In this document: piece after piece, positions 44,123-50,689 of the stretch
Numbering within the stretch: the first letter of the stretch is position 1
How the letters are laid out: every line of letters begins with the position of its first letter
Source: Halobellus captivus
Lineage (GTDB): Archaea; Halobacteriota; Halobacteria; Halobacteriales; Haloferacaceae
Direction: 5' to 3'
Assembly: GCF_007655485.1 (NCBI RefSeq)
Contig: NZ_VJXQ01000005.1
Span: 1 to 64,000 of the forward strand
DNA length: 64,000 nucleotides
The notes under the pieces: model-generated
Databases searched by the model: none
Seen by the model: only the letters and a program-made list of their open reading frames with translations
Told to the model about the DNA's origin: nothing
Program-made: the position numbers and the translations under genes

Positions 44123-44621
44123 GAGAGAACGATCGGCGGGGAGGAGTATCCATTCACGTCGTGCATTGAGAGAGTATATTTCGTGTGCTTTTTCGCCCGA
44201 CAGCGACGGTGTTAGAGCGTACTGGAATGTACGAAGCGGCCTCTCTCGCGGGACAGATCGATTCGAATTCGTTTCGAATCGGCGCCGATTCTATCGCTGG
44301 GCGTTCCTTTTCGATGGTCACTCAGACGATCTGTAACCCGACGGGCGTGGACCCGGGGATCAGTTATGTGTGGAACGCGTTCGAGGTTCTTCAGATATTC
44401 GTACACAGATCAGCTCACAGTGAACTCATCGCACAGATGAAAAGCATAGCTGATTCTCAATATTTCTGGAACTGAAGAAGGACGTAATCGGAATCCGACG
44501 CCGTCTCCCGTATCTGGTTTGTGATGAAGCGTGGTTGTATCTGCAGGGCCTAGGCCTTGACAATACGATCCGTTACTCCGGTGTTGTCTGGTGGTTAGCT
44601 AAGATAAGAAAAGTGATATGT
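44123..44621. other. Intergenic region at the left edge of the recombinase island
   Basis: About 500 bases. A 96-codon rightward frame (44185-44475) has no recognisable motif and is not called. No tRNA gene or obvious att-like repeat was seen by eye. The right end carries the recombinase promoter region (TAAGATAAGAAAAG before ATG 44622). Confidence 0.4.
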
Positions 44622-45635
44622 ATGTCGGAGTTAGAACCTATCGACCCGAGCAGAGCACTCGAATTGTACCTCGAAGATCGTAGTGGAAACCTCTCGCGAG
44701 GCACCATCATCTCCCACCGGTCGCGCCTCTCTTCGTTCGTCGAGTGGCTCGACGAGCGGGAGATAACCAACCTGAACGAACTCACGGGCCGCCTCATCAA
44801 GGAGTACCAGATCGAGGGTCGCAAGGACAGCGACTGGGCGCCAGCGACGGAGAAGGGAATGATGGACACCACCCGCGTCTTCATCCGCTGGTGTGAGAGC
44901 ATCGAGGCCGTCGAGAGTGGACTCTCACAGCGCGTTCAGTCGCCCGTTGTCAAAGACTCGAACATGGCGCGACACGAGCAACTCGACTCTCAGACCGCCC
45001 AATCAGTCCTGAATAACCTCGAACGATACCACTACTGCAGCCGGGCGCACGTGACGCTCGCAGTGATGTGGCACACGATGGCCCGGAAGGGGGCCGTCCG
45101 ATCCCTTGACGTCGAGGACTACGATGCTGACGAGCGGTATCTCCGGTTCAAACACCGACCCGACACCGACACGCCGCTCAAGAACAAGACGAAGTCCCAG
45201 CGTCACGTCGCCATTTCGGAGTCGATCGCCGACCTCCTCGACGACTGGATCGAGAACAAACGCCCCGACGTCACGGACGATTACGGCCGAGAGCCGCTCA
45301 TTACGACCAAGAGGGGGCGTATCGCTGGGAGCACGATCTCGAGGTATGCGTACAAGTGGACGCAACCGTGTCGGCACGACGGGTCGTGTCCGCTCGGGCG
45401 AGATCCGAAGACCTGTGACGCGACCGATTACGGTAATTCCAGTACCTGTCCCGAATCGGTCTCACCCCACCCGTTCCGGCGCGGATCGATCACGCACTGG
45501 TTACGGTCAGACGTCCCGTCGCAGGCCGTCGCAGGTCGTGCTGACGTCTCCGAACGAGTGATTGAGAAGCACTACGACGAACGCTCCGACCGGGAACGGA
45601 TGGAACAGCGACGGTCGTATCTGGGGAACGTCTAA
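44622..45635 (+). CDS. Haloarchaeal tyrosine recombinase (intact)
   Basis: 337 residues from ATG 44622; a longer in-frame start lacks similarity. N-terminal SAM-like domain (about 8-100: ALELYLEDRSGNLSRGTIISHRSRL). The catalytic domain has Arg in TMARKGAVRSLD (about 155), HxxR in SPHPFRRGSITHWL (about 282-285) and Tyr in EKHYDERSDRERM (about 316). A Cys-rich insert (RHDGSCPLGR, KTCDATDYG, STCPESVSP) before the HxxR box resembles a zinc-binding loop and is shared with the broken recombinase at 48-49.5 kb. Probably the integrase of this island. Confidence 0.9.
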   Translation: MSELEPIDPSRALELYLEDRSGNLSRGTIISHRSRLSSFVEWLDEREITNLNELTGRLIKEYQIEGRKDSDWAPATEKGMMDTTRVFIRWCESIEAVESGLSQRVQSPVVKDSNMARHEQLDSQTAQSVLNNLERYHYCSRAHVTLAVMWHTMARKGAVRSLDVEDYDADERYLRFKHRPDTDTPLKNKTKSQRHVAISESIADLLDDWIENKRPDVTDDYGREPLITTKRGRIAGSTISRYAYKWTQPCRHDGSCPLGRDPKTCDATDYGNSSTCPESVSPHPFRRGSITHWLRSDVPSQAVAGRADVSERVIEKHYDERSDRERMEQRRSYLGNV

Positions 45636-45904
45636 ATTGCTTGTGTCTGAGTAAATAGTATCCCGAGATCGTTTTTCTAGCCAGTCCAAATTCCACCTGC
45701 GTAAATTCTTCTCGCCGAATGTTTGCTAAACACGCTACACTACAGCTGCGTAAACGGTTCCCCCGAGACAATTACCTAGTGTGCTATTGGATTCGTAGAA
45801 CTATTTCGCGGAGTTTACTCCACAGTCTCGCAACCAAATCAGGCGTGAGAATCTACGTACGAACCAAACAGAAGCACCAGCCCGAAAGTGTGGTGTGAGA
45901 GTGG

Positions 45905-46306
45905 CTAGTCGTCGGTGAGTTGGGGATAGGCCACTTCCCAGAGATGTTCGTCGGGATCGGCAAAGTAGCCGGAATAGCCGCCCCAGAAGACTTCCTGCGC
46001 TGGTTTCACGATCCGTCCACCGGAGGCCGCTACCTCGTCAAGGACCGCGTCTACTTCCGCTTTAGTCGATACGTTGTGGGCGATAGTGATTCCAGCGAAC
46101 CCGTTACCATCCGCAGGAATGGCGGCGTCTTCGGCGAGTGATTCTCTCGGGTAGAGCGAGAGCCATGTCCCGTCGAGTGGGAAGAAGGCGACGTCGCTGT
46201 CGTCTTCCCGCTCTTGCATCGGCAATCCGAGACCATCTCGGTAGAACCGGATGGATTCCTCAAGATCTGATACACCGAGTGTCACGAGTGTAATCCGTGG
46301 ATCCAT
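45905..46306 (-). CDS. VOC-family (glyoxalase/dioxygenase fold) protein
   Basis: 133 residues from ATG 46306 (two residues shorter than a TTG alternative). Two beta-alpha-beta-beta-beta halves: ITLVTLGVSDLEESIRFYRDGLGLP (about 4-28) and GFAGITIAHNVSTKAEVDAVLDEV (about 70-93), ending GYSGYFADPDEHLWEVAYP with the metal-ligand Glu. VOC proteins bind a divalent metal and act on diverse small molecules, including resistance and detoxification; substrate unknown. It is monocistronic. Confidence 0.88.
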   Translation of the reverse strand: MDPRITLVTLGVSDLEESIRFYRDGLGLPMQEREDDSDVAFFPLDGTWLSLYPRESLAEDAAIPADGNGFAGITIAHNVSTKAEVDAVLDEVAASGGRIVKPAQEVFWGGYSGYFADPDEHLWEVAYPQLTDD

Positions 46307-46713
46307 AGTCAATAGAGGTGTACAGTAACGATAAGTCGTTCCGCTGGACTGGCCGATTCGCGATTCCCCAAAGGGGTATGGGAATCACTGGCTCTGTTGA
46401 AACCCTTCAGCGTTGACATTTGGAAGAGCGACTCTTCCAACTGGATTTAACGGATCCGATGAGAAACTAGTCTCTCAGAAAACCGCAAGACTGCAAGCAG
46501 GGCTCGTGCCTCCAGTCCTTGCGTCGCGCGTCGTCGTCGAGAGCGCGGCCCCTTCCATTCCCATCCAAGAGTGGTTTCTCGGCTGCAATCGCTTAATTAA
46601 ACACTACCGACATCTCCTCAAATAATTGAAGAGTTTGTCTGAAGCAATATCACGCCGTGACAACTCCTTTTCAGTAACCTTTATTGCGATTTGCACGCAA
46701 TTCGCTATTAAAG
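46307..46713. other. Intergenic region with a possible IS6-end relic
   Basis: About 400 bases. ATTAAACACTACCG at 46597-46610 differs by one base from the end of the complete IS6-type copy (CTAAACACTACCG on that strand), so it may be a solitary terminal repeat. A GGCTCTGTTGAAA-like word near 46390 also resembles insertion-sequence ends. The right end is the HTH-PIN promoter. Confidence 0.35.
46679..46700 (+). promoter_or_regulatory. Promoter and inverted repeat before the HTH-PIN operon
   Basis: CCTTTATTG (46679-46687) is at TATA-box distance (27-35 bases) from ATG 46714. Overlapping its 3' side is TTGCG (46684-46688) ... CGCAA (46696-46700), a 5-base inverted repeat that could be the operator for autorepression by the HTH protein. 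Confidence 0.45.
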
Positions 46714-47229
46714 ATGGCAACGAGAGAAGCAAACTGGGATACCCCACTCGATACCGGCGGCCAAGCGTTCGAGCTCCTCAGGAATCCTCGCAAAGCGTGG
46801 ACCTATACTTATATCTACCATCATCCCTCGACAACGATCCAGAATATCGTCGAGACGCTCAATCTTCCGCAGCGAACGGTCTACGAATATGTTGACGACC
46901 TTGAAATCGCAGGCTTCATCGAGCAGTCGAATGATGGGCGGCCTGCAGAGTATACGGCTCGGAACATCGACATTCAACTAGCAGAAGGCGATGCCGAACG
47001 ACAAATCACGCCAGAGCTAGTTGAGGCAATCGCCCGTCGGATCCGAGACGACGATATTGATACGTATATTGACCGCCACGGACTTGATGGACTCGCTATC
47101 GCGCTCGAATACGCTCGCGAATACGTTGACGGCTCTGTTACGCATCGGATTATGGCTCGTGAACAAGAGCTTTCACCTCTCGAAGCGGGCGTCATTCTAG
47201 ATGCCCTCCGTCCCGTCGTTGAGGATTGA
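46714..47229 (+). CDS. Winged-helix regulator, probable antitoxin of the PIN gene
   Basis: 171 residues from ATG 46714 (an upstream in-frame start would sit inside the promoter). The HTH part covers about 15-85: GGQAFELLRNPRKAWTYTYI, TIQNIVETLNLPQRTVYEYVDDLE and the wing FIEQSNDGRPAEYTA. A helical C-terminal half (about 90-171) includes LVEAIARRIRDDDIDTYIDR and LSPLEAGVILDALRP. It lies 6 bases before a PIN-domain gene. The layout is that of a DNA-binding antitoxin that represses its own promoter and binds the toxin. I know such HTH-PIN pairs from haloarchaea, but this pairing is inferred from position. Confidence 0.8.
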   Translation: MATREANWDTPLDTGGQAFELLRNPRKAWTYTYIYHHPSTTIQNIVETLNLPQRTVYEYVDDLEIAGFIEQSNDGRPAEYTARNIDIQLAEGDAERQITPELVEAIARRIRDDDIDTYIDRHGLDGLAIALEYAREYVDGSVTHRIMAREQELSPLEAGVILDALRPVVED

Positions 47230-47235
47230 TTCGGT

Positions 47236-47778
47236 ATGGGAAGTGAAGGGGCGGTCATTTTCATCGATTCGTCGGTCCTGATTAGTTGCGGTCGGCGTGA
47301 AAGCACGCGATTTCGAGCACTCGCTCGTGAAGCCCGTCAACGTGATACCGTCTTTCGTATTTCACCACAGGTATATGCCGAGGTAACCACTGATCCAGCA
47401 CTCGATGCGTATCCCTCCGATACTGCTGTCGAGGAGTCACTACAGGAGGGATGGATGAAAGTCACCGAAAGTCCGTCCTATTCGGAATCGGATGTCTCAA
47501 ATGTGATGGATCAGGCGCGGAACTTCATCGCGAGTTCGAGCGGTCGGGCAGCGGACGTTGTCGAAAAAGCGGATACGGAAATCGTGGGTCTAGCACTCGA
47601 AATGCTTCTTGATGGTTCTACTGATCGAGTTGCTGTAGTAACGAACGATATTCCACTTGGTGAGGCGGTGGAATCGCTAATACCGAAATACGGATTCGAC
47701 AACGAACAAATTACGTGGCTTACTGGTGGTGAACTCGCTGACGAACTCGCCGAAGATTTCGTTCCCGAATTCGACTGA
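47236..47778 (+). CDS. PIN-domain ribonuclease-like protein (probable toxin)
   Basis: 180 residues. The four acidic PIN residues are visible: D11 in VIFIDSSVL, E49 in PQVYAEVTTD, D113 in VEKADTEIVGLAL and D138 in VAVVTNDIPLG. PIN toxins cut RNA using one or two Mg ions. Encoded 6 bases after the HTH gene. The last codons overlap, on the opposite strand, the altered end of an AbrB-type gene. Domain assignment is strong; toxin activity and target are inferred. Confidence 0.85.
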   Translation: MGSEGAVIFIDSSVLISCGRRESTRFRALAREARQRDTVFRISPQVYAEVTTDPALDAYPSDTAVEESLQEGWMKVTESPSYSESDVSNVMDQARNFIASSSGRAADVVEKADTEIVGLALEMLLDGSTDRVAVVTNDIPLGEAVESLIPKYGFDNEQITWLTGGELADELAEDFVPEFD

Positions 47779-48019
47779 CATCACGAGGACACTCTCCTCT
47801 GAGTCGGCGCATCCGGTCGGACATCGTGTCATCGCTCTCCGCACTCCCACGATATTTTTTAAATGGGTTCTTTCCGTCCGCTATTGTTGGAACCTCCTTC
47901 CCTAACGTGTAGCCAGATTCGGTCTGTTCGAATGCGACCTCGTCTCCTAGCTCAATCCCGAGGGTCTCACGAATCCGCTTCGGAATTGTGACCTGACCGT
48001 TGGCCGTGACACGTGGCAT
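47720..48019 (-). CDS. AbrB/MazE-type DNA-binding protein with a replaced C-terminus
   Basis: 99 residues from ATG 48019. A classic swapped-hairpin AbrB domain: MPRVTANGQVTIPKRIRETLGIELGDEVAFEQ (split: about 1-32), then ESGYTLGKEVP and the haloarchaeal helix RMRRLRGECPRD. Family members end shortly after that helix and are followed by a toxin gene on the same strand. Here the recognisable sequence stops at about base 47777, exactly at the convergent PIN gene stop, and the frame runs on for 18 residues antisense to it (ending RVRQRVHHQ). This looks like a recombination junction that removed the original end and partner. An earlier in-frame start at 48061 is possible. Confidence 0.7.
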   Translation of the reverse strand: MPRVTANGQVTIPKRIRETLGIELGDEVAFEQTESGYTLGKEVPTIADGKNPFKKYRGSAESDDTMSDRMRRLRGECPRDVSRIRERNLRRVRQRVHHQ

Positions 48020-48091
48020 TGGTCGTTCTGGTATCCTGATGTAGTCCGGCATGTGTATCATGGAAATATCGCTACTCAGGATTGACCGCTG

Positions 48092-49485
48092 TTAGAGATC
48101 TTCGACGAAGGCACGCCGCGCCTCACGGCGTTCCGCTTTCGTACTCATATCGTACCAGCGTTCGATCGTGTCGGGATTGGCGTCACACCGTTTCGAGATC
48201 ACGTCCTCGGTGGGGACGCCGTTGGCCCGGAGGTGGGTGATGTAGCCTCGCCGGATCGGATGCGGTGAGACTGACTCCGGGCACTTGTAGGCGTCATCGT
48301 TCGTCTGTGCCGCCTCACACGTCTTCGGCTCTTTCCCGACCGGACAATCCGCGCCAATCGCACACGGACGGGACCAGGCATACACGTACTGGCGCATCGT
48401 GGTCTTCTGAAGACGGCCGTTCCTCGTCGTGAGCAACGGTTCTCTCCCGTAGTCGTCGGTGACAGCGTTTCGATTCGCTTGGATGTATCCGTCGAGAATC
48501 TGCGCCGCCTCGCTTGAGATGCTGATTTCGCGTTCACCCTTGGCACCGTTCTTCAGTCGCGTTCACCCTTGGCACCGTTCTTCAGTCGCGTTCCCTTGTC
48601 CTCGCGGTTGACCGCCTCGATGTAGCGCTCGGTGGCATCGTAATCGTCGAGGTCGAAGGCGTACAGGGTGGACTGCCGAATCCCCGTTTCGGCGAGGAGT
48701 GCCCAGATCACGTGCGCCTTCGAGAACGGTTTGAACTTCGCCAGGTAGGCGACGATCTCCGTTGCGTCATCGCGGGAGAGCCACGTCTCGTCCTTCCCAT
48801 CACCGTCTGAGAGCGTCGGGAGGATGATGAGCTCGTGAAAGCCACGGTCGAAGACCCCGCGGCGCTCGCAGTATCGGACGAACTTCCGCAGGGACGACAG
48901 ACACCCCTTGATCGTGGATCGGGCCCCGATCTGGGGTTGTTTGCGAAGGTAGTTGTGGAACTCGTCTATACGGGATGGCTGAATCTCTCGAAGGTTCTCG
49001 ATGTCTTGCTCCGCGCAAAACTGTCGGAAGTGTTTCAGCCGTGCCCGGTAGGAACTGATGGTGCCTTGGGCCACTCCCCACGGGTTCGTTTCGAGATAGA
49101 AATCGAGGACGTCGTTCACCGGGGCAGGCTCCGAGAACAACTCGTCCCCATCTCGGACCTCTTTGGATTTAGAATTGGTCGGCTCTTCAAGATCGGTTGT
49201 CGCCGAGGATTCGTTCGGGTCGGGACCCGGATCAGTTCGTCGGGTGGCTGTCGTGCCTGCTTTCGGTGTTCCGTGACCCGTCGGACTCTCGGGGGCTACG
49301 GTCCCATTGGAATGGCCGTTCTCGACCAATTCTGTCGTGATCGCCCCTCCGTCAGTCCGCAATTCTTGGTTTTGGTCGTCGGAGTCTGCCTCGAATTGGT
49401 CGGGACTGTTGGCCAATTGGTCGGGGTCTGTCTCCGTTTGGTCGGGGACGTCGACAGCGTCGGGGGTCTCGTTTGTGTCGGTCAC
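48092..49485 (-). pseudogene. Tyrosine recombinase broken by a 29-bp tandem duplication
   Basis: The N-terminal part (GTG 49485 to 48553, 310 codons) has a disordered DQ-rich leader (about 1-125), the SAM-like domain (VLDFYLETNPWGVAQGTISSYRARL) and the catalytic Arg in ALLAETGIRQSTLYAFDL; it stops right after LKNGAKGERD. The remainder in another frame (to 48092) has YGREPLLTTRNGRLQ, the Cys-rich insert (GADCPVGKEPKTC, YKCPESVSP), HxxR in SPHPIRRGYITHL and the Tyr box (TIERWYDMSTKAERR). Deleting one 29-base unit joins both into one frame (ERE ISISSEAAQ), giving about 454 residues. As it stands the active site is split. It may be phase-variable rather than dead. Confidence 0.88.
48530..48587. 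repeat. Perfect 29-bp tandem duplication inside the recombinase gene
   Basis: Two identical adjacent 29-base copies at 48530-48558 and 48559-48587, each starting GCGTTCACCC and ending TTCAGTC, followed by a partial third start (GCGTTC). 29 is not a multiple of three, so the extra copy shifts the reading frame. Confidence 0.95.
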
Positions 49486-49988
49486 GCGCTGATCCCTCCG
49501 GAACGCGGTTTTTTGCTCCTTGGAATGGGGATTGAGTGAGTTGTTACTGGTGTGTCGCCCCGAGTGGCCCGACCAATTTCGGAGTCAGAGACGTCTGTTG
49601 TCGGGGTGGGTTCGGGGAAGTCCATATCACACGTAGTCCGTTTTCCCCGAACAGCTCGTTCGGCGATTTCTGTGACCTGTCTCTCGACCATTTTTTCAGA
49701 GTTTGTCGACCAATTCGATCCAAAATCGCCTGTCGATGACGGCGGATATTGGTCGGTGAATTGGTGATCGATAGGTGGGAGGACCGAACGATTTCTCCGA
49801 GTATAGATCCTATACCTGTGGGTTAGTCGGTAATCCCAGGACTGTGTCTGTCCGTATTTCCCCGGGTTCGATGCGAGTCGCTCCCCGAGTGCTCTCGGCG
49901 GCGGAGTCGGTCGACGGGGAATCGTTTTGCGAGTGAATGAGACGGTCATCTTCTCTGTCCAAGTACGGTATTCGGCTCGCTTCGGCAA
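49482..49988 (-). CDS. Hypothetical protein upstream of the broken recombinase
   Basis: 168-codon open frame, basic, Arg/Thr/Pro-rich, with one regular segment (SEKMVERQVTEIAERAVRGKR, about 97-117, just over one helix). Its TGA overlaps the GTG start of the recombinase (GTGA), the only positive sign of translation. No family is recognised and composition is unlike the acidic proteins around it. It could be noncoding. Confidence 0.3.
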   Translation of the reverse strand: MPKRAEYRTWTEKMTVSFTRKTIPRRPTPPPRALGERLASNPGKYGQTQSWDYRLTHRYRIYTRRNRSVLPPIDHQFTDQYPPSSTGDFGSNWSTNSEKMVERQVTEIAERAVRGKRTTCDMDFPEPTPTTDVSDSEIGRATRGDTPVTTHSIPIPRSKKPRSGGISA

Positions 49989-50038: not shown

Positions 50039-50689
50039 ATGACTAACAACCCGGATCGACCGACCGACGAACTGTTCACCGGCGTCGACGACGTCACCGA
50101 TGACGACAGCGAGCGTGAGCCGCTGCTCACGCCCGAGAATCGACCACGGGGGATACTCACCCCGACTGATCGAGAATACCTCTGTGGGCTCAAGGAGTAC
50201 GCCCAGCCGCAGACGGACGCCAACCGGCGACAAGATATCCGCGAGCGGGTGGTCAACGGACTCAAGGACTTCGTGTTACTGAGTTTGTTCCTCGAATCGG
50301 ACGAGCGCGAGAAGATCTTCGAGGAGCTCGACCCCGATGAGACCGACGACGTGCTCGCCGCGATGGTCGCGTTCAGTTATCTCGGGCTCGAAGGGGACCG
50401 ACCCCGGCTCGAAACGCGTTTCGAGCACGGCGTCCTCCAGGGGGCGAACGTCGACAAACTCTTTCAATCGTCGGGGCGGGCGACCGATGTGGACGTCTCG
50501 ATCTCGGTCGAGTACAACCCCGACATCGAGAAATTGTACCGGCGTTTCGAGGACGGCCAGGAGCTGACCGATGCCGAGGTCGGTGCGCTCGTTCGGGCCG
50601 GGAAAATTGGTGGTGACGAGATCGAGGAATTGGTCGGGTCGCCTCGGGGCTTCCCCGGAGTGTTTGCTGGATGCGGGTCCGGGGACTGA
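50039..50689 (+). CDS. Haloarchaeal protein of unknown function, often near recombinases
   Basis: 216 residues, acidic. Core about 35-125: PRGILTPTDREYLCGLKEYAQ, NRRQDIRERVVNGLKDFVLL and REKIFEELDPDE. The second half has a beta segment (VDVSISVEYNPDIEKLYRRFEDGQ) and an EELTDAEVGALVRAGKI-like helix. I recall proteins with the TDREYL...RQxIRERV core as common on haloarchaeal plasmids and proviruses; function unknown. The last about 15 residues (SPRGFPGVFAGCGSGD) are unlike the rest, so a late frameshift is possible. Confidence 0.65.
   Translation: MTNNPDRPTDELFTGVDDVTDDDSEREPLLTPENRPRGILTPTDREYLCGLKEYAQPQTDANRRQDIRERVVNGLKDFVLLSLFLESDEREKIFEELDPDETDDVLAAMVAFSYLGLEGDRPRLETRFEHGVLQGANVDKLFQSSGRATDVDVSISVEYNPDIEKLYRRFEDGQELTDAEVGALVRAGKIGGDEIEELVGSPRGFPGVFAGCGSGD

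Follow-up and report, generated by a model that had tools for sequence, protein, structure and literature searches.

The 64,000-nucleotide window of the Halobellus captivus genome that was analysed contains two recombinase genes, intA and intB, which converge on a stretch of variable cargo, and intA is interrupted by a perfect tandem duplication of 29 bp (Table 1). On its domains and motifs, intA is a haloarchaeal tyrosine recombinase. Pfam recognizes the core-binding SAM-like domain (Phage_int_SAM_1, PF02899; 3.7e-11) and the catalytic domain (Phage_integrase, PF00589; 5.1e-6), the latter with 26.8 bits, just under the cut-off of 27.1, while NCBIfam Xer models match weakly and the closest solved structure is 3NRW, the N-terminal domain of a phage integrase/site-specific recombinase. 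The core-binding domain and the Arg, HxxR and Tyr boxes are present in a single frame in the orthologs and in the read-through of the window gene with one unit. This is the arrangement of the haloarchaeal tyrosine recombinases/integrases (PF00589/PF02899; PMC8371274; 3NRW), in which a SAM-like core-binding domain is followed by the catalytic R...HxxR...Y; unlike these, the window intA is frameshifted within the catalytic domain and is paired convergently with a second recombinase across variable cargo. No relatives were found among viral contigs. Near-identical plasmid DNA was not found either, except for a 7% stretch at a hypothetical protein and a fragment of an IS6 transposase.

Table 1. 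Features at the intA locus. Positions are those of the window; L031 (Halobellus clavatus) and L033 (Halopenitus malekzadehii) are loci of relatives.
Feature	Position	Strand	Remarks
intB, intact partner recombinase	44535-45635	+	convergent with intA; adjoins intA also in L031, L032, L033 and L064
Variable cargo between intB and intA	45636-48091		
Cargo: glyoxalase-like ORF	45905-46312	-	by eye
Cargo: TrmB-HTH/DUF7437	46684-47229	+	
Cargo: PIN-like protein	47236-47778	+	by eye, no profile match
Cargo: AbrB/MazE-like	47720-48061	-	
Tyrosine recombinase intA, broken by the duplication	48092-49485	-	GTG start at 49485, natural end at 48092; 454 aa read through with one unit omitted
Severed 3' part of intA	48092-48436	-	longest start-to-stop ORF, TTG start, 114 aa
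29-bp perfect tandem duplication	48528-48593		units 48528-48556 and 48557-48585, plus 8-bp microhomology 48586-48593 = TCGCGTTC
Truncated intA product	48553-49485	-	310 aa, ends ...KNGAKGERD; Arg270 kept, H399/R402/Y435 lost
Fast-evolving conserved ORF upstream of intA	49482-49949	-	L031 623-1090; L033 7534-8004
Divergent 216-aa gene	50039-50689	+	no family match; adjoins intA in L031, L032 and L033

The repeat tract comprises 66 bp with a period of 29, 100% identity and 2.3 copies. It is far past chance expectation and is the sole perfect tandem with a unit of at least 13 bp in the window, and the 29-bp unit was not found elsewhere in the 3.35-Mb genome with up to three mismatches allowed. 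Since 29 is not a multiple of three, translation of intA halts after residue 310 at a frame-0 TGA (48553-48555), and HxxR and Tyr are lost: Arg270 (in ETGIR) precedes the break, H399-x-x-R402 and Y435 follow it out of frame, and in the window's own intA the three boxes no longer share a frame. The original prediction, which placed two perfect copies at 48530-48587 (exactly two units, in another register) between the first catalytic Arg and the HxxR/Tyr boxes, was thus accurate on the structure of the tract. Its expectation that omission of one unit would restore a recombinase of about 454 residues also held, the resulting ORF being seamless and of 454 aa, and its claim that the duplication switches off the recombinase is upheld as regards the frameshift, with inactivation almost certain given the loss of HxxR and Tyr.

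Intact orthologs of intA from other species carry the single unit in four of four cases: two copies in Halobellus clavatus, one (L031) with 77% amino acid identity and a length of 1365 bp, exactly 29 bp shorter than the window gene, and a second (L032) with 59% identity; one in Halopenitus malekzadehii (L033; 82%); and one in genome G301 (L064; 61%). The two-unit state was not seen in any ortholog compared. Two further orthologs are pseudogenes. That of G397 (L065) has suffered loss of the 5' part, a 1-base insertion and an in-frame stop, the insertion breaking the frame within about ten codons of the site of the window's duplication, while that of G008 (L066) has lost the 5' part and has several frame breaks. 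In all, three of the seven known intA orthologs are broken, each by a different lesion, and the unrelated lesions of the G397 and G008 pseudogenes indicate that intA decays repeatedly. The original prediction had named inactivating mutations in the same gene of related genomes as evidence against it, and these two pseudogenes come close to that description, with lesions unlike the window's.

The inferred one-unit allele of the window reads GAACGCGA, 21 bp and GAACGCGA again, that is, an 8-bp direct repeat exactly 29 bp apart. The catalytic part of the one-unit intA has no other direct repeat of at least 8 bp with copies 60 bp or less apart, all further repeats of this size in the gene lying in the N-terminal CCCGACCAA stretch, and the chance of a microhomology of at least 8 bp at a random 29-bp duplication is about 2e-4. 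Judged from the sequence, 8-bp arms at a distance of 29 bp are the signature of microhomology or replication slippage, and both marks of a microhomology-mediated tandem duplication (MTD) are found here, namely a pre-existing 8-bp repeat at both ends and a single copy in relatives. In a single-unit ancestor, GAACGCGA would have flanked the 29-bp stretch on both ends, and a nascent strand that re-annealed one repeat upstream during copying would have duplicated 29 bp, made up of the 21 bp and one 8-bp arm, the two arms having served as sites of slippage or of a microhomology-mediated template switch. The ensuing frameshift would have created a null allele, with loss of recombinase activity. The most probable reading, to which we give a probability of roughly 0.8, is consequently that a recent microhomology-mediated 29-bp duplication of the replication-slippage type frameshifted a haloarchaeal tyrosine recombinase into a null allele. 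It resembles the MTDs of fission yeast ssp1 (PMC13207564), which are likewise short, in-gene, bounded by microhomology, productive of a premature stop and reversible in principle, but differs from them as a fixed allele, known from a single archaeal assembly, that shows no sign of subclonality, selection or reversion.

The age of the duplication can be approached from several sides. The two copies show no differences (0/29), which gives a 95% upper bound on their divergence of 0.098, so that the identity of the copies is in itself a weak argument for recency. Relative to the Halopenitus ortholog, at a synonymous distance of 0.43, the dN/dS of intA comes to 0.19 for the gene as a whole and to 0.12 past the break, and no further lesion besides the duplication was found in the window gene. 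Polarising the substitutions reveals a slight nonsynonymous excess for the window lineage that is not significant (p = 0.08 when L031 serves as outgroup, 0.72 when L032 does), a result that fits both the presence and the absence of a short pseudogene phase. Owing to the low dN/dS, the lack of a second lesion and the 0/29 differences, the duplication looks like a late and fairly recent event in the window lineage. Given the synonymous distance of 0.43, it would take up about the final quarter of the branch at most. The original suggestion that the event is recent or maintained is accordingly retained in its first part, in view of the identical copies, the low dN/dS and the otherwise undamaged gene, and dropped in its second, as the identity of two 29-bp copies is no evidence of maintenance.

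That the second unit is an artefact of assembly or sequencing, the true molecule having one unit, is unlikely. The two-unit state is known from a single draft assembly in 21 contigs and breaks an otherwise well-conserved gene, as might be expected of an error; however, the tract is shorter than an ordinary read and lies far from the contig ends, 48 kb into a contig of 225 kb, which rules out a contig-edge effect, and the junction fits the biological slippage signature with its 8-bp arms. Assemblers usually collapse tandem repeats rather than add units, which also counts against an artefact. Equally, a broken frame need not abolish function if programmed frameshifting joined the two parts, or if the 310-aa fragment, in which the SAM-like DNA-binding domain and the extension at the N terminus are still present, bound DNA as a regulator or acted as an accessory protein, and the still low dN/dS would agree with this. 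Such residual function is nevertheless quite improbable, as the His, Arg and Tyr of the catalytic domain have been lost, the low dN/dS would be inherited from before the late event, and a rescuing frameshift would be confined to TGAACGCGACTGA, 13 nt including both stops. Programmed ribosomal frameshifting was rejected as this stretch has no slippery heptamer, as was internal re-initiation in the severed 3' part, where the TTG ORF has neither the N-terminal domain nor Arg I and thus yields no functional recombinase.

The original prediction further proposed a phase-variation switch, in which reversible gain and loss of the unit would turn the recombinase off and on. Perfect 29-bp direct repeats that share 37 bp of homology in all are able to contract, microhomology-mediated duplications of reversible type occur in fission yeast ssp1 (PMC13207564), and the recombinase might govern the cargo module. 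Reversible frameshifting duplications are also known from the pneumococcal capsule genes, where, according to the passages of PMC4243769 that cite Waite et al. (2001, 2003), perfect tandem duplications within the ORFs of cap3A, cap8E and tts turn the gene off and could be reversed by loss of a copy. The same passages report high-frequency phase variation of these surface-structure genes, whereas intA, a recombinase gene, is known in one state from one genome. If a switch had evolved here, an unstable repeat would be expected to be conserved, or copy number to vary, or both; in the orthologs no unstable repeat was found at the equivalent place, their counterparts of the 8-bp arms contain mismatches so that perfect arms occur in the window allele alone, and there is no two-copy ortholog, which favours an accident. 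Moreover, the tract has two copies rather than a multi-copy array, and the lesions of the other broken orthologs are unrelated and irreversible. Equivalent duplications are also common in this genome: stretches totalling 501 kb of its 3.35 Mb hold six perfect tandem duplications with a unit of at least 12 bp, about one per 80 kb, two of the six, besides the 29-bp intA duplication, having units not divisible by three, and a duplication of the intA kind is therefore unremarkable. The proposed switch was thus not borne out, and as an evolved contingency device it must be considered very unlikely. Still less credible is a genuine if infrequent on/off state of this recombinase, as one of a convergent pair that governs the exchange of a defence or toxin-antitoxin cargo; the off state would freeze the cargo and slippage revertants would re-open it. 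As with any fresh tandem duplication, a unit may in chemical terms be lost again at low frequency and the gene restored, but this possibility does not speak for a designed switch, and the duplication looks like an ordinary null allele produced by slippage. A second example of this type of mutation lies at position 3648 of L074 in the same genome, between genes or at a gene edge, where a 20-bp perfect tandem duplication, its period not a multiple of three, is associated with a 10-bp microhomology.

The genes next to intA are shared with its relatives. The upstream ORF evolves fast (dN/dS 0.47-0.69) with its frame kept in the relatives, and its stop overlaps the start of intA (GTGA/ATGA), an overlap that suggests translational coupling of the two. 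The divergent 216-aa gene adjoins intA in every locus read, with 90% identity in L033 and 71% in L032. A GACCAATT/CCGACCAA motif occurs at 49173-49760 and at 50628 of the window and is clustered at the same place in relatives. The form CGACCAATT is found eight times in the window against about 0.5 expected in all, six of the eight occurrences lying within 0.6 kb of the N-terminal coding part of intA and the region upstream. These motifs may represent binding sites of the recombinase or a regulator, or may reflect a Pro-Asp-Gln repeat in the protein.

The convergent intA/intB pair is common to the window, L031, L032, L033 and L064, and the DNA similarity among these pairs ends at, or a few bases from, the two recombinase stop codons. 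The cargo between them is absent in L032, where the two stop codons overlap, and measures 0.5 kb in L064, 1.3 kb in L031, 2.4 kb in L033 and 2.5 kb in the window. In L032 (13149-13211; 9374-10387) 63 bp left over from the 3' end of intB are found 2.8 kb past the start of intB, next to the same TrmB/DUF7437 gene that the window cargo contains; this suggests that an insertion took place at the intB 3' terminus, as at an attachment site. Convergent pairs with 0-8 kb of variable cargo were encountered in the window (44535-49485), L031, L032, L033, L064, L067 and L089-L097. All of the approximately 15 neighbouring recombinase pairs in 12 genomes, several of which were chosen for a known pair, are convergent, and in 20 genomes not chosen for pairs, seven of the nine pairs within 10 kb are convergent and none divergent (P = 0.0013 against an expectation of one quarter, shared ancestry being ignored). 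In nine of the pairs encountered in all, the cargo includes GmrSD-type restriction, McrB/McrC-like proteins, OLD/Gabija-like and Lamassu-like ATPases, a CARF protein, and an MNT-type nucleotidyltransferase next to a partner of HEPN size. Passages of a haloarchaeal study (PMC11078007) place island-borne restriction genes on integrase-containing islands; keyword searches of parts of this study and of a review on archaeal tyrosine recombinases (PMC8371274) returned no description of a convergent pair with variable cargo. Convergent pairs with cargo that is often related to defence or toxin-antitoxin functions are possibly a widespread haloarchaeal cargo-exchange module, which we offer as a lead. 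In the reading favoured here, the window intA belongs to a mobile or exchangeable module, convergent recombinases around variable cargo, whose recombinases are probably dispensable to the host and decay repeatedly.

The intA duplication offers a clear textbook case of slippage inactivating an archaeal gene, in which the pre-existing microhomology is made visible by comparison. Its context may matter more than the duplication itself, as convergent recombinase pairs are met again and again in haloarchaea with a cargo that varies and is often related to defence, and a lineage with one freshly broken partner would constitute a natural test of whether the exchange of cargo needs both recombinases.
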